DNA of 61,989 nucleotides from Actinomycetes bacterium (GTDB taxonomy: Bacteria; Actinomycetota; Thermoleophilia; Gaiellales; F1-60-MAGs149), in NCBI GenBank assembly GCA_025360225.1, contig JANYCN010000030.1:1-61989 (forward strand), in the 5' to 3' direction. The notes beneath the pieces are model-generated. The model was not told where the DNA came from and made no database searches. It worked only from the letters and a program-made list of their open reading frames with translations. The first letter of the stretch is position 1, and every line of letters starts with the position of its first letter. Positions 1,631 to 61,854 of the stretch are shown here, piece after piece. Both the position numbers and the translations under genes were made by a program.

Positions 1631-1762
1631 GGTTCCAGGTCAGGGGCACGCAAAGCGGGCCGGAGCGTGGTCGCCGCAGCTTGCTGGCACAGCCACCCAA
1701 TGGGTGGCGCAGCCGGCAAGCGCAGGCAGTCGAACGATCATGCCATTTCACAATCAGACCAC
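1631..1762 (+). mobile_element. MITE-like repeat, copy A (left part missing)
   Basis: The right half of the repeat family described at 53256-53502. Shared segments are GCACGCAAAGCGGGCCGG, the internal inverted repeat CAGCCACCC...GGGTGGCGCAG, and the right terminal inverted repeat CCATTTCACAATCAGACCAC at 1743-1762, followed by TA at 1763-1764 in a CTAG context. No matching left terminus is found between the upstream gene and position 1631, so the copy is truncated or diverged. It sits directly beside an IS30-like transposase remnant. Confidence 0.75.
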
Positions 1763-2204: not shown

Positions 2205-2854
2205 CTACAGGGTGATCCGCCCAGGTTCGCCCACGTTTAGGCGGCTGAGCAGGTATTTCTGTTCGGTGTCGATCGTCGTGCGCTGGTTGAAGGCGTGATC
2301 TTTTGTCTGAAATCGTCCGACCTGGAGACGCCCGAGGACGGGTCGGATCTGCCGCCACGTCTGGCCCGTGCCGGTCTCGGCGATGCGGATGATGAGCAGC
2401 GCGAGGAAGCAGATCAGGACGTGGCTTCGGATCCGGTCTTCGAGGCGGTGGTAGACCGGGCGCAGAAGGAGCTGCCCCGTCGTGTCGCGGAAGGCGCGTT
2501 CGGCTTGGAGCAGGTTCTTGTAGCCGGTCGCAACGTCCGCAGCGCTCATCGCGAGATCGGACGTTTCGAGCAGGTGAGCAGGTACTCGCCGTCGAGGCGC
2601 TCCTCGGCCTTGATCTTGGTGCGGTCGATGACGAGCCGGCCGGACGGTGTCTGCGTCAGGTAGCGGCCCAGCGAGCGGTGCGCGACGAGCCGGCACTCCT
2701 GCTTGTGATGCGGCTCGCCGCTCAGCGACTTTCGGTCGCGAGCGCGGTCGTGAGCCGCTCGATCGTGTGGTCGCGGCGCGTCTTCGTGAGCGCTGCCTCG
2801 AGCGGGTTGTGGCAGATCACGTAGCGGTCGGCGGCTTGTGATGAACGCCATCAT
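2205..2854 (-). pseudogene. IS1634-like (IS4 superfamily) transposase, C-terminal remnant
   Basis: Minus-strand pieces in shifting frames read [11 protein letters not shown]-like, then RYLTQTPSGRLVIDRTKI and LDGEYLL, then (next frame) SAADVATGYKNLL, AFRDTTGQLLLRPVYHRLED and IRSHVLICFLALLIIR. This order is the C-terminal third of IS1634-family transposases, including the YREK-type region of the DDE fold. At least two frameshifts (near 2575 and 2725) break it and the N-terminal two thirds are absent. Its upstream edge runs into the small gene at 2817-2981, so insertion probably truncated that gene. Confidence 0.8.
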
Positions 2855-39625: not shown

Positions 39626-42111
39626 GCGTCGTGGACAACCTTCTCGAGAAGGGCCTGAGCGCAACCGCTTTCGACCCTGACGCGGCAAGGCGACCACTGC
39701 CGGGACGGGCGCGTACGGTCGTGATCGGCGCCGGCATCGTCGGCTCGAGCGTCGCGCACCACCTCGCGGCGCTCGGCGAGCGTGACGTGGTCCTGCTCGA
39801 GAGGCACTCGGTCGCTGCCGGCACGAGCTGGCACGCGGCAGGGCTCGTCTCGCGCGGTCGCGGCACGCGGATGCTCACTGCCCTCGCGGACTACGGGATG
39901 GGCTTCTACCGCCAGCTCTCGACGGTGTCCGGGATCGATGTAGGTCTGCGCCAGCCCGGCTCGATCCTGCTCGCACGGACGCCGGAGCGCGTCACCGAGC
40001 TGCGCTACGCCGACGGCGTCGCGCGACACGCAGGGATCCCGAGCGAGATGATCACGCCCGAACGCGTCGCCGAGCTGCACCCGCTTGCGAGCACGACCAG
40101 GCTCGTCGGCGGTCTCCACCAGCCCGACGACGGTCACCTCAATCCCGGCCGCGCCGCGCTCGCGATCGCGGCGCTCGCCCACCGCGGCGGCGTGACGATC
40201 CGTGAAGGGGTGACCGTCACCGGCATCGCCGCCTCCGCCGGCCGGATCCGCGCCGTGCTCACGACCGACGGTGAGGTCGAGTGCGAGACGGTCGTCCTCG
40301 CCACCGGGCTGTGGACACGCGACCTCGCAGCGACCTGCGGTGCAGCCGTGCCGATCTGGCCCGCCGCCCACCTCCACGTGCGCACCGCTCCCGTTGCCGG
40401 CGCCGAGGAGCCGCTCCCGGTGCTGCGCGACCTCGACGGCTACCTGTACGTGCGGACGCACGCCGGCTCGCTGCTCGTCGGCGCGTTCGAGTCGAACGGC
40501 AAGCCGCTCGACCCGCAGAGCCTGCCAGGGTCGTTCGCGTTCGGCGAGCTCGCCCCCGACTGGGATCACTTCGCGCCGATCCGGGCTCTTGCGGAGGAAC
40601 GCGTGCCGGTGCTGCGCGACAGCGAGTACGTGCGCTTCCTCAACGCGCCCGAGTCGTTCACGCCAGACACCGCCTTCTGCCTCGGCGAGACCGCCGAGGT
40701 CGCGGGCCTCTACGTCGCCGCCGGCTTCAACAGCCAGGGCATCATCTACGCGCCCGGTGCCGGGCGAGCGCTCGCCGAGTGGATCGTCGAGGGTGCGCCG
40801 ACGTTCGACGCGGGTAGCGTCGACGTGCAGCGATTCTCGCCACTGCAGGCGACGCGGCGCTACCTCCACGCTCGCACGGTCGAGAGCCTCGGCAACCTCT
40901 ACGCGATGCACTGGCCCCACCTCCAGCCAACGACCGCGCGTGATCTGCGCCGGACGCCGCTTCACGACCGCGTCGACGCCGCCGGCGCGGTGTTCGGCGA
41001 GATGACCGGGTACGAGCGCGCGAACTGGTACGCCATCCCGGGTCAGCCGCGGGAGTACGTGTACAGCTACGGCCGTCAGAGCTGGTTCGAGCGGGCCGGG
41101 GAGGAGCACCGGGCGGCGCGCGAGTCGGTTGCCGTGTTCGACCTCTCGACCTTCAGCAAGGTCGAGATCGCCGGCCCCGAGGCCCTCGCGTTGCTCCAGC
41201 ACCTCTGCACCGCCAACGTCGACGTCGCCGTCGGGCGCGTGGTGTACACGCTGATGCTGAACGCGCGTGGCGGCATCGTCCTTGACGGCACGATCACCCG
41301 GCTTACAGAGGACCGCTTCCTCGTCGTCACGCCGACCGCCGCCCACACGAGGACCCTGGCGCTGCTGCAGCGCGCCGCGAGCGGGCGTGCGGTGAGCGTG
41401 GTCGACCGAACGGCAGGCCTTGCGACGATCGCGGTGATGGGGCCCTCCTCGCGCGAGCTGCTCGCCCGTATCACCGACGCCGACCTGTCGACAGGGGCGC
41501 TGCCGTGGGGACGCGCCGCGGAGATCGAGGTGGGCCGCGGTCGCGCCCTCTGCCTGCGCGTCAGCTTCGTCGGTGAGCTCGGCTACGAGCTGTACCCGAC
41601 CTCTGACCTCGCGGTCGCGCTCTACGACGACGTCGTCGTTGCTGGCGTCGGGCTCGGGCTCCGCGCCGCTGGCTATCACGCGCTTGACAGCCTCCGCTGC
41701 GAGAAGGGCTACCGCCACCTCGGACACGACATCGGTCCGACCGACGACCCGTACCAGGCGAGCCTCGGTTCCACCGTGCGGCTCGAGAAGGACGGCGGAT
41801 TCGTCGGTCGCGACGCCATCGCCGATCGCGCGGAGGAGCGCCCCGACCGCCGACAGGTATACGTTCGCCTCGACGACCCGGAGCCGTTGCTCCACCACGA
41901 GGAGACGATCTTCCGCGACGGTGAGGCGGTCGGACACGTCACGTCGGGTGCGTATGGACACACGATCGGCGGGGCGTGCGGGCTGGCCTACGTCCGCGGC
42001 GACGTCGCGGCCGGGTCGAGCTTCACGGTCGACTGCGGCGGGCGACCGACGTCGGCGACGGTATCCGACACCCCGTTCTACGACCCGCAGAACGCCCGTC
42101 TCAAGGCGTGA
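39622..42111 (+). CDS. FAD-GcvT fusion, dimethylglycine/sarcosine dehydrogenase-like
   Basis: 829 residues, GTG overlapping the toxin stop. N-terminal FAD oxidoreductase domain: RTVVIGAGIVGSSVAHHLA, then GTSWHAAGLVSRGRG, where the His is at the position covalently flavinylated in dimethylglycine/sarcosine dehydrogenases. From about residue 480 a GcvT-like aminomethyltransferase domain follows (FDLSTFSKVEIAGPEAL, SFVGELGYELY, LRCEKGYRHLGHDI), which moves the released one-carbon unit to tetrahydrofolate. Electrons would go to ETF and ETF:QO (34544). Its 3' end overlaps the XPB gene by 11 bp. Confidence 0.9.
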   Translation: MSVVDNLLEKGLSATAFDPDAARRPLPGRARTVVIGAGIVGSSVAHHLAALGERDVVLLERHSVAAGTSWHAAGLVSRGRGTRMLTALADYGMGFYRQLSTVSGIDVGLRQPGSILLARTPERVTELRYADGVARHAGIPSEMITPERVAELHPLASTTRLVGGLHQPDDGHLNPGRAALAIAALAHRGGVTIREGVTVTGIAASAGRIRAVLTTDGEVECETVVLATGLWTRDLAATCGAAVPIWPAAHLHVRTAPVAGAEEPLPVLRDLDGYLYVRTHAGSLLVGAFESNGKPLDPQSLPGSFAFGELAPDWDHFAPIRALAEERVPVLRDSEYVRFLNAPESFTPDTAFCLGETAEVAGLYVAAGFNSQGIIYAPGAGRALAEWIVEGAPTFDAGSVDVQRFSPLQATRRYLHARTVESLGNLYAMHWPHLQPTTARDLRRTPLHDRVDAAGAVFGEMTGYERANWYAIPGQPREYVYSYGRQSWFERAGEEHRAARESVAVFDLSTFSKVEIAGPEALALLQHLCTANVDVAVGRVVYTLMLNARGGIVLDGTITRLTEDRFLVVTPTAAHTRTLALLQRAASGRAVSVVDRTAGLATIAVMGPSSRELLARITDADLSTGALPWGRAAEIEVGRGRALCLRVSFVGELGYELYPTSDLAVALYDDVVVAGVGLGLRAAGYHALDSLRCEKGYRHLGHDIGPTDDPYQASLGSTVRLEKDGGFVGRDAIADRAEERPDRRQVYVRLDDPEPLLHHEETIFRDGEAVGHVTSGAYGHTIGGACGLAYVRGDVAAGSSFTVDCGGRPTSATVSDTPFYDPQNARLKA

Positions 42112-43768
42112 CGCCGAGGTCCGAGGCGTCGACGATCGTGTATGCGTACCCCTGCTCGGCGAGGAATCGCTGCCGGTTCGCGGCGAAGCTCTGATCAGAG
42201 GTGTCGCGGGCGACGACGGCGTAGAAGCGGGCCTGCCGGGCGTCCGCCTTCGGACGGAGGATCCGGCCGAGACGCTGCGCCTCCTCCTGTCGCGAGCCGA
42301 ACGTGCCCGACACCTGGATCGCGACGGACGCGTCCGGCAGGTCGATCGAGAAGTTCGCGACCTTCGACACCACGAGCAGGCGCTCCTCACCCGCGCGGAA
42401 CGCGGCGAACAGGCGTTCCCGCTCGCGGTTCGGCGTCTTTCCGGTGATCAGCGGCGCACCGAGACGCCTCGCGATCTGATCCAGCTGGTCGAGGTACTGG
42501 CCGATCACGAGCGTCGGCTCGTTGTGGTGACGGCGCACGAGCGCAGCCGCGACGTCGAGCTTCGCGACCGGTGTCGCGCCGAGCCGGTGACGGTCGGCGT
42601 CCTCGGCGATCGCGTAGGTCATCTGTTCGTCCGCGGTGAGCGAGACTCGCACCTCCATGCACGTCACCGGCGCGATCCACCCCTGCGCCTCGATCTCCCG
42701 CCACGGGGCGTCGTAGCGTTTCGGGCCGATCAGCCCGAAGACCTCGCCCTCCTTCCCGTCCTCGCGCACCAGCGTCGCCGTTAGACCGAGACGCCGCTTC
42801 GCCTGGATCTCCGCGGTCATCCGGAACACCGGTGCCGGCAGGAGATGGACCTCGTCATAGACGACGAGTCCCCACTCCTCGCGTTCGAACAGGGCGAGGT
42901 GGGCGTTCTCTCCCGCACGGTTTCGCGACACCATGATCTGGTAGCTCGCGATCGTGACCGGGCGCACCTCCTTCACCGTCCCGGAGTACACCCCGATCTC
43001 CTCCTCGGTGAGCGTCGTGCGCGCGACGAGCTCGCGTCGCCACTGGGTCGCGGCGACGGTGCTCGTGACGAGGATCAGCGTCCGCGAACCGACGAGGGCG
43101 ATCGTCGCCGCGCCGACGATCGTCTTGCCGGCGCCGCACGGCAGCACGACGACGCCGCTTCCCGCCGCGTGCACCGCCTCAGCGGCGTGGCGCTGGTAGT
43201 CGCGCAGGTCGAAGTCGTCGCGTAACGCGACCGCGAGCGCCGTCCCGGAGACGTACCCAGCCTGGTCGTCCGCAGGCCAGCCGAGGCGGACGAGCGCGTG
43301 CTTCACCGACCCGCGGGCGCCGCCGGGAACGCGGACGGAGCCCGGGCTGATGCGCGCTCCGAGCAACGGCCCGACGAGCTTCGATCGGACGACCTCCTCG
43401 AGGATCGCCGGCTCGGTCGTCTCCAGCACGAGCCCATCCGCGTCGGCTCGCAGAACGAGCCGCCCGTAGCGTGCCATCGTCTCGCGCACGTCGACCAGCA
43501 CCGACTGTGGGACGGGGAACCGCGAGAAGGTGGTTAACGCCTCGACGACGGCCTGTGGCGTGTGCCCAGCCGCACCGGCGTTCCACAGCCCGAGCGAGGT
43601 GAGCCGGTACGTGTGCACGTGCTCGGGAGCTCGCTCCAGCTCCGCGAACGGTGCGATCGCGGCGCGGCACGCCTCCGACGACGGGTGATCGACCTCCAGG
43701 AGGAGCGTGCGGTCGGACTGCACGATCAGCGGACCACTCGTGGTCTGATGGTGAGATGGCGTGGTCAT
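42101..43768 (-). CDS. xpb: XPB/Ssl2-type DNA helicase; start codon supplied by a repeat element
   Basis: 555 residues. Superfamily 2 helicase: after an N-terminal DRD-like region (GPLIVQSDRTLLLEVDH, PFAELERAPEHVHTYRLT), motif I VLPCGAGKTIVGA, motif II VYDEVHLLP, motif III LTATLVRE, and C-terminal GTFGSRQEEAQRLGRILRPK. Close in layout to mycobacterial XPB, whose N-terminus is a short MTDGPLIVQSD. Here it begins MTTPSHHQTTSGPLI: the extra residues are the translation of the terminal repeat of the element at 43740-44051. Roles in repair/recombination are inferred from the family. Confidence 0.93.
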   Translation of the reverse strand: MTTPSHHQTTSGPLIVQSDRTLLLEVDHPSSEACRAAIAPFAELERAPEHVHTYRLTSLGLWNAGAAGHTPQAVVEALTTFSRFPVPQSVLVDVRETMARYGRLVLRADADGLVLETTEPAILEEVVRSKLVGPLLGARISPGSVRVPGGARGSVKHALVRLGWPADDQAGYVSGTALAVALRDDFDLRDYQRHAAEAVHAAGSGVVVLPCGAGKTIVGAATIALVGSRTLILVTSTVAATQWRRELVARTTLTEEEIGVYSGTVKEVRPVTIASYQIMVSRNRAGENAHLALFEREEWGLVVYDEVHLLPAPVFRMTAEIQAKRRLGLTATLVREDGKEGEVFGLIGPKRYDAPWREIEAQGWIAPVTCMEVRVSLTADEQMTYAIAEDADRHRLGATPVAKLDVAAALVRRHHNEPTLVIGQYLDQLDQIARRLGAPLITGKTPNRERERLFAAFRAGEERLLVVSKVANFSIDLPDASVAIQVSGTFGSRQEEAQRLGRILRPKADARQARFYAVVARDTSDQSFAANRQRFLAEQGYAYTIVDASDLGVTP

Positions 43769-44051
43769 CCGGCCGCCTGGATCGTCCTGCGCTTGCCGGC
43801 TCCGCCACCCGTCGGGTGGCTCTGCCAGCCAGCTCCGGCGCCCACGTTCCGGCCCGCTCTGCGTGCCGGATCGCGGGCTTCGCGGGAGCGTCGCGCGCCG
43901 CTTGCACTTAGCGTGTCAAGGCGAACCGCCTTGACACGCGTGCGAGCGGGCGTGCTACCAGCACGCCCGCGTTCGGCAAGCCCTACGCGACGCGCAACGC
44001 TCCCGCTCGCTCCAGACACCCGATGACGATGCCATTTGACAGTCAGACCAC
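43740..44051 (-). mobile_element. MITE-like repeat, copy B (312 bp), inserted between the helicase-associated gene and xpb
   Basis: Opposite orientation to copy C. The left terminal inverted repeat ends at 44051 in a CTAG; the right one starts at 43740, where the flanking TA has become TC (GA on the minus strand). The interior carries two perfect palindromes (see 43911-43970). The stop of the 44051-46126 gene is the TAG at this junction, and the first 29 bp of xpb lie within the element. No open frame for a transposase. Confidence 0.85.
43911..43970. repeat. Pair of perfect hairpins inside repeat copy B
   Basis: GCGTGTCAAGGCG (43911-43923), loop AAC, then its exact complement to 43939; and GCGGGCGTGCT (43946-43956), loop ACC, then AGCACGCCCGC to 43970. 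Both stems recur in copy E (61935-61960 and onward) with different loops, while copy C lacks them. They could form stable RNA stems or act as terminators; no U-tract follows. Confidence 0.8.
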
Positions 44052-46126
44052 TAGCCACGGGTGAACAGCTTGCGTGCGACAGCGGTGCTATCGAGAAGGA
44101 GGGGAGGCGACGGCTCGTACGTCGGCCCGCGGCTCGGGTAGGCCGCCCGCTCGTGTGCCGGTCGCGTCACCTCGACCTTCCCCCCGGCGGACTCGCCGAC
44201 GGGAAGGAAGCCGGCGTCGCGAAGCGCTGCGAGGACCTCCTTGCTCGTCCTCGCCGACACCAGGACCGTCGGCGCGATCGCCACCAGGCCGAGCTTCCCC
44301 AGGCGTTTGGTGCGCGCGATCTCGGCGATCAACGTGACGTCGTCGGCACGCACGAACGTCCGGGTGCTTCCCACCCTGACGCCGCCGTGACGGCGTGCGA
44401 CGTCATCAATGAGGTACCCGAGCGCCTGCGGCAGGCCCTTCGTTGCGTGCGTCTCGAGGAACGCCCGGATCGTCATCGACGTCTCGCCCGCGTCGAGGGC
44501 GCGTCGGAGCGAGCCTTGGGAGATCCGCAGCACCGTCGCCTGTCCGCGTGACTCGACGTCGGCGAGCAGGCGCAGCGTGCGGTCAACCTCGTCGGCGAGT
44601 GCGCCGGCAACGACGACGGTCTGGTCGGCCTGCAGGGTGAAGCCGGCCACCGCCGCGACGGTGTGTGCGGCGATCGCCTTCGCTGCACCCTCGAGACCGC
44701 CTGCCGCCACGAGCCGGCCGGCCGTCGTCGCGGCAGACAGCGCGACGAGACCGAGCATCTCCATCTCGCGGAGGTGCAGCTCGATCAGCAGGCCGACCGG
44801 CACCTTGTTCTCGCTGTGTAGCGCAGGCTTCCGCCAGAGCAGCGCTTCGATCAAGCGGCTCGGTTCGATCGAGGTGCCGACGGGAAGCTCGCACAGGGTC
44901 TCGAGAACGGTGCGCCGCGCGGCGATGTTCTCGCGCAGGCCGTCGTCGTAGACCAGCGCGCCCTGTCGGCGACCGTCGAGCGTCACACCCGCAATGCTCG
45001 GGAACCGTGGACTCGTCAACCACGTCTGGACCAGCGCGCGCCATCGCTCCGCTGTGGTCCTCTCAAGCCATCCGTCCGCGGCCTTCGTCGGCACGAGGCG
45101 GTCGATCGAGCTGGCGTGTCCGACGAGTCCGAGCTCCCCCGCCAGGTTCAACAGGCGGCCGGCATCGACGTCGGTCTTGTCGACGCCCGCGCCGACCTGC
45201 GCCAGCTCGCGCACGCCGACGGCCGCGGTCTTGAGCAGCGGCAGCGGCGTCAGGTCGAGGCCGCGAAGGATCGATCCGATCGCCCGGACGGTCGCATCCG
45301 CCGCGGCGCTCGCGGCGACGTCGATGTCGGCGACGGGAACGCTCCCGGCGGCACATGCCGGCTGCTCCCTCTGCGTCTTGATCGTCCAGCCGGGGCCGCG
45401 GAGGATCAGGCCGATCTCGCGCGGGAGCTCGAGGAGGTGCGCGTCGAGCGGCAGGAGAAGCGCGTGCCGCTCGAGCCAGGCAGCAGGCCCGGGGATCTTC
45501 CGGTCGGGCCAGTAGACCCAGCTGCCAGCGCTGTAGCTCTCGATCGTTGGGCTCCAGGTGAGCTCCTCGAGCAGGGCGCGCGCGTCGTCGGGCGCTGTCG
45601 CGAGGACGGCGAGGACGCGGTCGCGGTCGCCGAGCACCGCCGCGATCTTGCCCGTCACCTCTCCCTTGCGGCCAGCCGTGTCGACGCCGAGCAGCCTTCC
45701 GAGGTCGGTGCAGAACCTCGCGGGCCGGTCGTCGAGCAGCTGCACGGCGGACGCGCCGAGGCCGAGCGGCCGCCCGAAGACGTTCTGCAGCGACCGCGTC
45801 GTCTCGATGAAGTCGCCGTCAAGGCCGACGATCGCTCGCTGGGCGAGCGCCGTCAGCGGCGCCACGAGGTGTTCGATCTCAACATCCTCGAGCACCGCCG
45901 CGAGCTCCTCGCGCGTCACGAGAGGCCCGAGACCGACAGCGGCCGCGCACACCTGGGCGACGAACAGGTCGAGGTCCGCGAACGCCGCCAACACCGAGGA
46001 TGGCGAGGCCGACCGCTGGGCGAGTGACTCGAGCGTCTGCGGGATCACCTGCCGGAGGTCGGGGCGCAGCTCGAGCAGGTGTGCGACGCCGTCGCGCCCG
46101 AGCTCCTGGAGCCAGCGAAGTCTCAT
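44051..46126 (-). CDS. Helicase-associated protein (XPB-partner family)
   Basis: 691 residues from ATG 46126 (MRLRWLQELGRDGVAHLLELR). In actinobacteria a large protein with a C-terminal helicase-associated winged-helix region (here VLRISQGSLRRALDAGETS...YLIDDVARRHGGVRVGS... near residues 555-620) is encoded directly before XPB, as for Rv0862c-Rv0861c in M. tuberculosis. The middle is rich in Ala/Leu helices and the exact function is unknown. Its stop TAG lies in the repeat-element junction CTAG. Confidence 0.85.
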   Translation of the reverse strand: MRLRWLQELGRDGVAHLLELRPDLRQVIPQTLESLAQRSASPSSVLAAFADLDLFVAQVCAAAVGLGPLVTREELAAVLEDVEIEHLVAPLTALAQRAIVGLDGDFIETTRSLQNVFGRPLGLGASAVQLLDDRPARFCTDLGRLLGVDTAGRKGEVTGKIAAVLGDRDRVLAVLATAPDDARALLEELTWSPTIESYSAGSWVYWPDRKIPGPAAWLERHALLLPLDAHLLELPREIGLILRGPGWTIKTQREQPACAAGSVPVADIDVAASAAADATVRAIGSILRGLDLTPLPLLKTAAVGVRELAQVGAGVDKTDVDAGRLLNLAGELGLVGHASSIDRLVPTKAADGWLERTTAERWRALVQTWLTSPRFPSIAGVTLDGRRQGALVYDDGLRENIAARRTVLETLCELPVGTSIEPSRLIEALLWRKPALHSENKVPVGLLIELHLREMEMLGLVALSAATTAGRLVAAGGLEGAAKAIAAHTVAAVAGFTLQADQTVVVAGALADEVDRTLRLLADVESRGQATVLRISQGSLRRALDAGETSMTIRAFLETHATKGLPQALGYLIDDVARRHGGVRVGSTRTFVRADDVTLIAEIARTKRLGKLGLVAIAPTVLVSARTSKEVLAALRDAGFLPVGESAGGKVEVTRPAHERAAYPSRGPTYEPSPPLLLDSTAVARKLFTRG

Positions 46127-46133
46127 CGCCGAC

Positions 46134-46139
46134 AGTCTA
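46134..46139 (-). promoter_or_regulatory. Putative -10 box (TAGACT) for the helicase-associated gene
   Basis: TAGACT on the minus strand lies 7 bp before the ATG at 46126; no ribosome-binding site between. Confidence 0.45.
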
Positions 46140-46730
46140 CGACGCCGGCCGAGCCCGAGCGATGGCTCTCGTCGGGATAGGTCTCGGGCTCGCGCGCGTT
46201 GTTGTGTGTTCCGAGCAGGACGAGTCGCCGGCGACCGAGACCGGTCGTCAATCACGCGGGTTCGAGCTTCAGACGCCGCTCGGAGCTACGTCAGCTGGTC
46301 GTATGCGCCGCCGACCAAGGCAACGTGGCGGTCGACGGAACGAGGCACCGCCGCCCGGGCGGTAGGAGACCGTCAAAAGCTCGGTGCTGTCGGATCGGAT
46401 GGGAGAGACCTCCGCCCGCGGGTGGGTGTGCCGTTACGTCGGTGCACCACGGTGTCGCTCGAGAGCACAACGCCCACGCGTCCGGCACCGCGAAGCGCAC
46501 GACGCAGCTGCCGGACGAACTGCGGACGAGCGGATCGGGACGCGCGACCCACGGCAGCTGAGGCCCGGCAACGGAGACGGGTACGCCGCCAGGCCGGCGG
46601 CTCCACTCGACCTGGAGACCGAACATGTGCGGATGGCTCGCCGCGCTGGCGAACGCTGCGACGAGCTAGCGCCGACCCGCCGGTACCCTCGGGAGACGTC
46701 CCGATCCGTCGAGCCGGCATTCCTGCGCCG
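46140..46730. other. About 600 bp without a recognisable gene
   Basis: Between the divergently placed start of the helicase-associated gene and the stop of the EamA transporter. Several frames are open by high GC (for example about 110 codons on the minus strand and 150 on the plus strand), but none has a family motif, a good start or codon-position bias that I can see. No repeat-element terminus, tRNA or known structured RNA was recognised. Confidence 0.5.
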
Positions 46731-51983: not shown

Positions 51984-51993
51984 GTTGTACCAT
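51984..51993. promoter_or_regulatory. Overlapping divergent -10 boxes (TACCAT / TACAAC)
   Basis: Plus strand TACCAT (51988-51993) ends 6 bp before the ATG at 52000; minus strand TACAAC (51984-51989) is 7 bp before the GTG at 51976. They share two base pairs and both genes would be leaderless. TACAAC is the weakest match of the set. Confidence 0.4.
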
Positions 51994-51999
51994 GCCCCG

Positions 52000-53256
52000 A
52001 TGCGGCGGGGTGCGCAGGCGGTGCTGGTTGGCGTCCTGGTGGCGGTGACGCCCGCCGCTGCCGTCGCGGCGCCAACGGGCGTTCCGGCAAACCGCGCTCT
52101 CGTGCCGGCGAACGCGGCGTTCGCCCGCGCCGCGATCCCCTGCACGGCGACGACCGCGCGCTTCCGTGTCTGGTGGGACGAGCGGAAGGGATCGCCCGAC
52201 GCACCGCCGGGGGTTGACGGGCGCTGCCGGACGCTGCCGCCGCTCGTCGCGCGGCTGCTCGCAGACGTTGAGCGCGTTCGTGTTGCCGAGCTGGCCCTCG
52301 GCTTCACCGACGCGCCCGACGATCGCGCGCTCTCGCGCAACGGCGGTGACGCGCGCCACGACGTGTACGTGCACCACTCCTCGGGGCGAGGTGAGACGGG
52401 CAGCGAGTGGTGCTCGTACCTGTCGCGCGGCTCCACGATCCTCCGCACGTCGAGCTACACGATCGTCTCGCCCGGCGCCGGCGCCGGCATCGATCTCGAC
52501 GAGACCGTCGCGCACGAGTACTTCCACGCAATCCAATGCCGCTACGTGCCGCGCATCACGCGCCTGCCTCCCTGGATCGCTGAGGGCACCGCGAACTGGA
52601 TGGCGGCGCTCGTCACGCCAGGCGTGTTCGCGCCGAGCCCAACACGGATCGGCAACCTGATGGGCCGGCTGGCGAGCAGCGCCTCGAGCACCCTCCCGCT
52701 GACCGGGCAGGGATACGACGCCTGGGGCTTCTGGTACTCGGCGACCGGCGGCGCCGCACGCCCGGGGATCGTCCGTCAGATCCTCCAGCGTGTCGGCTCC
52801 GGCACCGGCGCGCTCGCCGCGACGCGCCTCGCGATCCCAGCGCTCGCCGAGGCGCTGCGCACGTACGCGACGGAGGTCGGACGAGGCACGATGATCGGTG
52901 GCACGACGCTGCCGTTGGCGTTCCCGAACTGGTTCGCCGACCCGCCGTCCGTGGTGATCGGTCCGGACGCGCCAACCGACGCGCTCACCCTCGAACCCCT
53001 CGGCTACGGCTACCGGGCGGTTTCCTGGACCGGCGGGTCGGTCGGCGGGAACCTCACGCTCGTCGGTGCTGGTCCGCTCGCCACCAGTTGCGCACTCGTC
53101 GGTGCTGACGGCACGCCACTCGCGCCGACCGTCGTCGGAGGCGATCTGCTGTTCGCGCTGCCAACGTCCGACGGCACCGCGCTGCTGGTCGTCACGAACC
53201 CGAGCGCCGTGGCGGTGCGCGTCGGGGTCACGACCCGCGTGGCCACCGTTGGCTAG
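52000..53256 (+). CDS. Secreted putative zinc metallopeptidase
   Basis: 418 residues from ATG 52000. Signal peptide (RRGAQAVLVGVLVAVTPAAAVAA), then a domain with HEYFHAIQCRYVP (HExxH) about 180 residues in, and WIAEGTANWMA with a downstream Glu, the gluzincin arrangement. The C-terminal third is beta-rich (GGNLTLVGAGPLATS, TALLVVTNPSAVAV) and may be a binding domain. No family name is certain. Its stop codon TAG lies in the CTAG junction with repeat copy C. Confidence 0.75.
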   Translation: MRRGAQAVLVGVLVAVTPAAAVAAPTGVPANRALVPANAAFARAAIPCTATTARFRVWWDERKGSPDAPPGVDGRCRTLPPLVARLLADVERVRVAELALGFTDAPDDRALSRNGGDARHDVYVHHSSGRGETGSEWCSYLSRGSTILRTSSYTIVSPGAGAGIDLDETVAHEYFHAIQCRYVPRITRLPPWIAEGTANWMAALVTPGVFAPSPTRIGNLMGRLASSASSTLPLTGQGYDAWGFWYSATGGAARPGIVRQILQRVGSGTGALAATRLAIPALAEALRTYATEVGRGTMIGGTTLPLAFPNWFADPPSVVIGPDAPTDALTLEPLGYGYRAVSWTGGSVGGNLTLVGAGPLATSCALVGADGTPLAPTVVGGDLLFALPTSDGTALLVVTNPSAVAVRVGVTTRVATVG

Positions 53257-53502
53257 TGGTCTGATTGTCAAAGAGCGGCGTCATCGGGTGTCTGGAGCGA
53301 GCGGGGGCGTTGCGCGTCGCGCAGGGCACGCTAAGCTCATGCGGCGCGCGACGTTCCCGCGAAGCCCACGATCCGGCACGCAGAGCGGGCCGGGGCGCGG
53401 TCGCCGGAGCTGAGCGGCGCAGCCACCCGACGGGTGGCAGAGCCGACCAGCGCAGGACGATCCAGGCAGTCGGATGACCACGCCATTTCACAATCAGACC
53501 AC
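53256..53502 (+). mobile_element. MITE-like repeat, copy C (247 bp), reference copy
   Basis: Begins GTGGTCTGATTGTCAAAG and ends CCATTTCACAATCAGACCAC, imperfect terminal inverted repeats extending about 44 bp (the left continues CGTCATCGGGTGTCTGGA, the right is its approximate complement). TA duplications at 53254-53255 and 53503-53504, both within CTAG. Internal inverted repeat CAGCCACCC...GGGTGGCAGAG. It lacks the two large hairpins of copy B. The right end holds an outward-reading ATG. Confidence 0.9.
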
Positions 53503-53553
53503 TAGGAGCCCGACCTCTGCCGCGCTGCCGCGAACCCCTGTGGCGGGGCACTA

Positions 53554-53625
53554 GTGGTGTGATTGCGAGCTGGCGCGTTCATCGAGTGGCAGCCGAATGA
53601 CCACGCCATTTCACAATCAGACCAC
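53554..53625 (+). mobile_element. MITE-like repeat, copy D (72 bp, terminal repeats only)
   Basis: GTGGTGTGATTGCGAGCTGG joined through a short centre to the usual right terminus CCATTTCACAATCAGACCAC, with TA at 53552-53553 and 53626-53627 in CTAG. It is essentially two terminal repeats back to back, only about 50 bp from copy C. The intervening 45 bp (53506-53550) hold a short GC hairpin and nothing else I recognise. Confidence 0.85.
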
Positions 53626-60771: not shown

Positions 60772-61854
60772 GTGATCGGAGACGACCCAAGACGCGACCC
60801 GGCCCTCGTAGCGGCGCTTCGGCGGATCGCGCCGGGGACGGAGCTGCGCCACGGGATCGACGACATCATCCGCGGTCATCTAGGGGCGCTCATCGTCATC
60901 GGTGATCCGTCTGAGCTCCAGTTCCTCTTCTCGGGTGGTTTGAACCTCGAGAACCCGTTCTCTGCGCAGTTCCTCTACGAGCTAGCGAAGATGGACGGCG
61001 CGATCATCCTGAACGCGAACGCGACCCGAATCGTCTCCGCGAACGTGCAGCTGATGCCCGACCCAACGATCGCGTCGTCGGAGACCGGCACGCGTCACCG
61101 CACGGCGGAGCGGGTGGCGAAACAAACCGGTGCGCTCGTCATCTCGATCTCCCAGGCGCGGGATACGGTCTCGGTATACGTTCGCGACATGCGCTACCAG
61201 CTCGACTCGATCGCAGAGGTTCTCGCGAAGACGAACCAGGCTGTCGCGACGCTGGAGACCTACCGCAATCGGCTTGACCAGGTGTCGAACCGGCTCACGG
61301 TTCTCGAGTTCCAGAACGCCGCAACCCTCGACGACGTCCTCGTCGTGCTCCAGCGTGCCGAGATGGCGACGAGGATGGGGGACGAGATCGAGCGAAACGT
61401 CGTCGAGCTCGGCCGCGAGGGTCGGCTGATCGACATGCAGCTCGCCGAGCTGATGGAGTCGGTTCCGTCTGATCGGTCAAACGTCGTGCGCGACTACGTC
61501 GCACCAGGCGCGATCGACGCCGCGGCCGTTCTCGCCCGCCTCGCGGCGTTACCGTACAAGCGGCTCCTCGACTTCTCGGAGCTCGCAGAGGTCCTTGGGT
61601 ACGGCGCGATCAACCCCCTCGACCAGCCGGTGACGCCGCGTGGCTTTCGAGCCCTCGCACGGGTGCCGCGCATCCCACCAGACGCCGTCACGACGGTCGT
61701 CGAGGCATTCTCGGGTCTCGAGCCGTTGATGCGTGCGTCGCTCCGCGAGCTCGAGGCGCTGCCCGGCGTCGGGCCCACGCAGGCGCGCGACATCCGGGAG
61801 GGGCTGCGGCGCCTCCAGGAGCACAACCTGATGGATCGATATTCCCAGATCTAG
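60772..61854 (+). CDS. disA: DNA integrity scanning diadenylate cyclase DisA
   Basis: 360 residues from GTG 60772. N-terminal DAC domain with MDGAIIL and TGTRHRTAERVA, which make c-di-AMP from two ATP; coiled linker in the middle; C-terminal HhH (LPGVGPTQARDI) that scans DNA. DisA activity stops on branched DNA and RadA is its partner. Its TAG stop overlaps the repeat-element junction at 61852-61854. Confidence 0.95.
   Translation: MIGDDPRRDPALVAALRRIAPGTELRHGIDDIIRGHLGALIVIGDPSELQFLFSGGLNLENPFSAQFLYELAKMDGAIILNANATRIVSANVQLMPDPTIASSETGTRHRTAERVAKQTGALVISISQARDTVSVYVRDMRYQLDSIAEVLAKTNQAVATLETYRNRLDQVSNRLTVLEFQNAATLDDVLVVLQRAEMATRMGDEIERNVVELGREGRLIDMQLAELMESVPSDRSNVVRDYVAPGAIDAAAVLARLAALPYKRLLDFSELAEVLGYGAINPLDQPVTPRGFRALARVPRIPPDAVTTVVEAFSGLEPLMRASLRELEALPGVGPTQARDIREGLRRLQEHNLMDRYSQI

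Follow-up and report, generated by a model that had tools for sequence, protein, structure and literature searches.

A high-copy family of miniature elements, probably of IS630 type, inserted at CTAG in a G+C-rich bacterial genome

The window, i.e. the whole 61,989-nt stretch of DNA analysed here, is exactly one contig (C41, positions 1-61989) of a 3.24-Mb genome assembled in 89 contigs with 70% G+C (called G000 in our contig lists, its contigs C followed by a number), of which 2.31 Mb (71%) was surveyed as sequence. Along with disA and helicase genes it carries short repeats (Table 1), and inspection of the sequence confirmed all five full or partial copies that an earlier note, made from the letters alone, had claimed. 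Their ends are oriented 1762(-), 43740(+)/44051(-), 53256(+)/53502(-), 53554(+)/53625(-) and 61854(+), and a search of the window with GTGGTCTGATTG, allowing up to two mismatches, gave 10 matches versus 2.8 expected, a number reached by none of the shuffles. The 247-bp copy shows 86-92% identity to full-length copies from other parts of the genome, and the 312-bp copy, which sits between two minus-strand helicase genes (window 42101-44054), is 92-94% identical to other copies of its length. The imperfect terminal inverted repeats, described earlier as about 44 bp long, hold over about 30 bp, where the left and right consensus ends agree at 28 of 30 bases, but are weak beyond (31/44 ungapped). 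Likewise, the reported TA flank in a CTAG context is present as CTA outside seven of the eight window ends, the eighth, at 43740, having CTC instead (ccactc directly before GTGG). The absence of a transposase from the copies was upheld in that the consensus showed neither transposase homology nor a coding remnant. An Rfam search of the window gave no match. Separately, a minus-strand frame at window 2394-2642, without Pfam matches, gave a weak hit to DDE_Tnp_1 (15 bits, below cut-off) and is possibly a decayed transposase or a chance match.

Table 1. Repeat copies and abutting stop codons in the window (positions in the window), and the nested IS5-type element elsewhere in the genome (contig:position)
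Feature	Position	Strand	Flanks and basis
5'-truncated copy, right end kept	1643..1762 (start approximate)	+	TAG flank; sequence and alignment
Complete 312-bp copy	43740..44051	-	right end 43740, left end 44051; CTC left, TAG right
TAG stop of helicase-associated gene (44051-46255, minus)	44051..44053	-	TA flank plus element's first G; Pfam Helicase_C_3
TAG stop of frame 51985-53256	53254..53256	+	TA flank plus element's first G; ORF list
Complete 247-bp copy	53256..53502	+	left end 53256, right end 53502; CTA 53253-53255, TAG 53503-53505
Minimal 72-bp copy, nearly nothing but two ends	53554..53625	+	CTA and TAG flanks; sequence and alignment
TAG stop of disA (60772-61854)	61852..61854	+	TA flank plus element's first G; Pfam DisA-linker, DAC
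Left part of a 312-bp-class copy, cut by contig end	61854..61989	+	CTA flank; sequence
Nested IS5-type element (G000)	C53:1-137, C26:1-442, C84:1-132, C75:14717		at CTAAG or CTTAG

A genome search for the family ends (CTAGTGGTCTGATTG, up to two mismatches) returned 271 matches compared to 2 for the reversed control pattern, and blastn with a 251-bp element returned at least 72 (40 of 321 first-look candidates scored). In the 2.31 Mb surveyed we delineated 242 left- or right-type ends, 56 complete pairs and about 196 family-like places, the latter making up 1.46% of bases. Complete copies mostly measure 70-313 bp and fall into main classes of ~250 and 312 bp that have in common a left part (~75 bp) and a right part (~170-178 bp), between which the 312-bp class carries an extra two-hairpin insert; members of the 312-bp class are on average 92% identical to one another, those of the 250-bp class 87%. 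The MITE strand is predicted to fold into a single long hairpin that carries side stems (z = -13.4 and -9.3 versus shuffles). Short, bounded by inverted repeats, devoid of a transposase and dispersed in many copies over the surveyed 71% of the genome, these repeats have the attributes of MITEs. As 85 of 178 contig ends lie within a copy, the assembly evidently breaks at the MITE repeats. Two longer end pairs, of 1093 bp (C47) and 1975 bp (C22), were discarded as full-length elements because they enclose host genes, and unusual ends enclosing foreign sequence (C49, C60, C82, C87, C68 and C17) were discarded as drivers because their inner frames are host-like, no transposase being recognised by eye among these frames. 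A very small palindrome at C75:35033, GTGGTCTGATCGTCACAGACCAC with TAG after it, resembles two ends with almost no interior. Neither a DNA match to the MITE in the plasmid collection nor its end sequence in the literature searched in this context was found, and the 16-mer CTAGTGGTCTGATTGT turned up in seven IMG/VR contigs that show no paired ends and were set aside as chance matches. Judged by these searches, the family appears to be undescribed, no similar element having been found in the collections covered.

The provenance of the ends emerged through a 165-bp MITE from another family of the same class (genome G121), which is flanked by CTA and TAG and has GTGGTCTGATTCAGAAGTT ends, resembling our MITE in the flanks and terminal bases only. 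When its end was searched for in 72,556 plasmids, two places were hit in a single record, Deinococcus sp. KNUC1210 plasmid NZ_CP092196.1, where a complete 1179-bp IS630 element occupies 448582-449760, reads GTGGTCTGATTCAGAAG directly after CTA and ends directly before TAG, in the same register as the MITE, and encodes a 373-aa transposase above the cut-offs for PF13358 and NF033545. Both of its sides have CTA followed by GTGGTCTGATT, with the TAG flank, and 14 of the 16 terminal bases equal those of the MITE right end; unlike the MITE, it is 1179 bp long and encodes a transposase, and it has an unrelated interior and comes from another phylum. The IS630/Tc1-mariner origin that the note had favoured is thereby supported at the level of ends, register and CTA/TAG flanks. 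The MITE right end also equals that of a Roseomonas IS630 element and of ISMex18 at 12-13 of 16 bases in the same register; ISMex18, a named IS630 element of Methylorubrum, has GTGG(C/T)CTGAGTTGGAAGTT ends after CTA and a TAG flank like the MITE but is autonomous and alphaproteobacterial. More broadly, 11 of 12 IS630 relatives of the Deinococcus element have a recognisable end pair, nearly all flanked by CTA/TAG, in the styles GTGG(T/C/A)(C/A/G)(T/C)GA and GTG(T/A)C(C/G)TGA, and those of Roseomonas, ISMex18, Microvirga and others have ends of the MITE type at CTAG. Within the same taxonomic family, genome G003 harbours a sister MITE with CTA/TAG flanks, GTGGTTCGACACGGAAATGGCG ends and similar subterminal sequence, which differs in its diverged ends and its 14 matches versus 271, and a complete IS630 element lies against one copy of it. 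With its GTGTC-style end, this IS630 element documents the family and the CTAG target, but its role as a driver is unproven.

A same-genome autonomous partner is not required of every MITE. Here, a PF13358 profile search of the whole genome was empty and no complete IS630 element with the MITE ends was found in the assembly, 71% of which was read as sequence; since the assembly breaks at MITE repeats, this absence is weak evidence. The sole IS630-like scrap, 37 codons at a contig end (C81:11660-11770, E 0.02, below NCBIfam detection), has a different terminus, GTGCAGTGTCC, and the MITE interior has nothing in common with IS630. On the basis of terminal bases and flanks, with the interior unshared, we consider it probable (roughly 85%) that the repeats are MITEs of IS630 type.

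An IS5 ancestry, which the note had raised as an alternative, drew our attention because C26 opens with a 143-codon piece of an IS5-family transposase gene (PF01609, PF13586, NF033580) that stops a few bases before a MITE right part, with a second case on C84. If this transposase were the driver, the MITEs would be its deletion derivatives, and there is precedent in that IS5/IS427-group elements often give 2-bp duplications (PMC3281130) and that MITEPsy1 of Pseudomonas syringae, tentatively tied to IS5, uses CTAG or YTAA (PMC3189936). However, the IS5-type element has ends of its own, GGGTCCGTCTCAGTAGC and GAGTCCGTTTCAGTAGG, which equal the MITE end at only 5 of 16 bases, and it is inserted at a CTAAG in the MITE interior, where a 3-bp TAA is repeated, as seen at the left junction on C53 and the right junctions on C26 and C84; a further copy, on C75, lies outside MITE sequence. 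In the same class, ends of the kind GGGCCTATCC at CTTAG/CTAAG accompany related transposases. Moreover, between C26 and C84 the IS part is identical at 124 of 128 positions (97%) and the MITE part at 154 of 178 (87%), so the IS5-type element entered two diverged copies separately. Own ends, a different duplication and separate entries make it a nested passenger rather than the driver, and we regard an IS5 origin of the MITEs as very improbable. A degenerate IS5-group orfA near a contig end (C22:71094-71321, PF13340, one in-frame TGA) is not continuous with the nested element.

No more credible is that a resident IS701 element moves the MITEs with a 4-bp CTAG duplication, even though the genome has an IS701 transposase gene (NF033540, 277 bits; PF13546) and three IS701 copies start directly after CTAG (C22, 71752; C25, 141; C35, 1335): the IS701 end TAGTGCTTTGTTGG agrees with the MITE end at no more than 5-7 of 16 bases, whichever register is used, and duplications of 4-9 bp without clear consensus are reported for IS701 members (PMC8024623). 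We rate this reading as extremely unlikely. An IS701-family element is also found at the end of C87. IS3-type ends (as in ISPsy24, TGTAGTGGTCTAATG), which would place TGTA before GTGG, were rejected on the grounds that position -3 is C in ~90% of ends and -4 is variable.

Returning to the IS630 reading, insertion into TA with duplication of the TA is established for IS630 elements, and work on ISY100 showed cleavage that is precise at the 3' ends but shifted two bases inward at the 5' ends, and reported a few junctions where the TA is incomplete on one side (PMC2170065); IS630 itself is reported to prefer TA within CTAG (Tenzen & Ohtsubo 1991, as cited in PMC2170065). By analogy, the non-coding MITEs of this Tc1/mariner-like type would be recognised at their GTGGTCTGATTG ends by an IS630-type transposase acting in trans, excised, and pasted into the TA of a CTAG with the TA duplicated; some copies would then have been shortened internally after insertion. 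The driver itself would be absent from the binned assembly or already lost.

The flanks fit such a target. Reading across all 242 ends, the bases outside are C in ~90%, T in ~88% and A in 72%, and 142 ends have exactly CTA before the element's first G, which matches the IS630 feature of insertion into TA, preferably in CTAG. Among the 56 pairs, CTA and TAG flank both sides in 22 and at least one side in most; 22% have C beside the element. No usable empty sites were found within the genome, and because CTAG is a palindrome, duplication of TA and of CTAG are inseparable here. Two sets of abutting copies have one common TA (C17:2264/2267 and C73:24295/24298), which is what one would predict if elements can also insert into the CTAG at the end of another element.

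One irregularity is CTC in place of CTA before GTGG, seen at 49 of the 242 ends, left and right alike, G or T occurring at only a few. Copies with CTC junctions tend to be more diverged, and the junction is associated with element variants (G at position 16, P ~1e-4 to 3e-3). We rejected CTCG as the target behind it, since CTC/CGA pairs are absent, and likewise a mutation hotspot in the CTAG palindrome, since the mirror change, CGA, is five times rarer. The CTC junction may stem from an earlier wave, from mutation or from a junction base that is inherited. We also considered a genuine departure from the clean IS630 TA duplication, with a heritable or mechanism-coupled junction base produced by an undescribed variant transposase or end-processing, but think it unlikely.

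CTAG is about ten-fold rarer in this genome than base composition predicts (616 sites off element ends versus ~6300 expected in 2.31 Mb), and we compared the use of these sites with respect to coding-like frames (at least 80 codons with high third-position G+C, thresholds that we set ourselves). CTA-flanked ends lie on the TAG stop of such a frame in 52 of 141 cases (37%), compared to 149 of 1204 (12%) for other CTAG sites counted in both orientations (P = 5e-12). Conversely, only 4 of the 141 fall within a coding-like frame in another phase, versus 242 of the 1204 (P = 7e-9). This enrichment of CTA-flanked ends on TAG stops is a new observation. Approximately 26% of coding-like frames ending in CTAG (52/201, over the surveyed 71% of the genome) carry a copy at the stop. 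With G as its first base and C as its last, the element restores CTAG on either side upon insertion, and the stop TAG within it is kept; copies at TAG stops thus do little harm to the gene. The frequency of such copies is explained by this rebuilding of the stop combined with selection against gene-internal insertions.

It could be argued instead that the copies are kept for a function behind genes, as a 3'-UTR hairpin or transcription terminator, rather than being plain selfish elements. Consistent with this, the folding is very strong by the z-scores given above, and in 26 of the 43 complete copies tested one side or both lie on a TAG stop. On the other hand, a long hairpin is the outcome of any inverted-repeat element, left and right ends occur at stops about equally (28 and 24), and CTAG targeting with selection against gene disruption already accounts for the position at stops, so that we give retention for function almost no weight.

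The selfish IS630-type insertion that we favour may have altered one gene start in the window. When the flanks of the 312-bp copy are joined, the sequence alone suggests GTG-GCT-AGT-GGT as the original first codons of the XPB-like gene, which would have overlapped the TAG stop upstream of it. The reading frame of this gene now continues into the MITE, where translation could start anew from an in-frame ATG (43768). Across the family, outward in-frame ATGs leading from the element into downstream genes are a weak signal (10 of 188 ends versus 7 and 3 in the other frames).

Among known systems, MITEPsy1 resembles the present family in being short, located at CTAG (or YTAA) and without a transposase, but it is 100 bp long, has GGAAGGTCTG ends and 6 copies, and is thought to derive from the IS5-type ISPsy2 (PMC3189936). 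Correia and ERIC, with more than 120 and up to 711 copies, respectively, are likewise high-copy palindromic intergenic elements (reviewed in PMC10969869); they are families of other taxa, and the likeness is one of description.

Taken as IS630-type MITEs, a repeat that makes up ~1.5% of the surveyed sequence and underlies about half of all contig ends is given a family assignment. The nested IS5 case is a warning that a transposase adjoining a MITE end does not prove a driver role. In a CTAG-poor genome of 70% G+C, the CTAG preference steers the elements to TAG stops, which insertion rebuilds.
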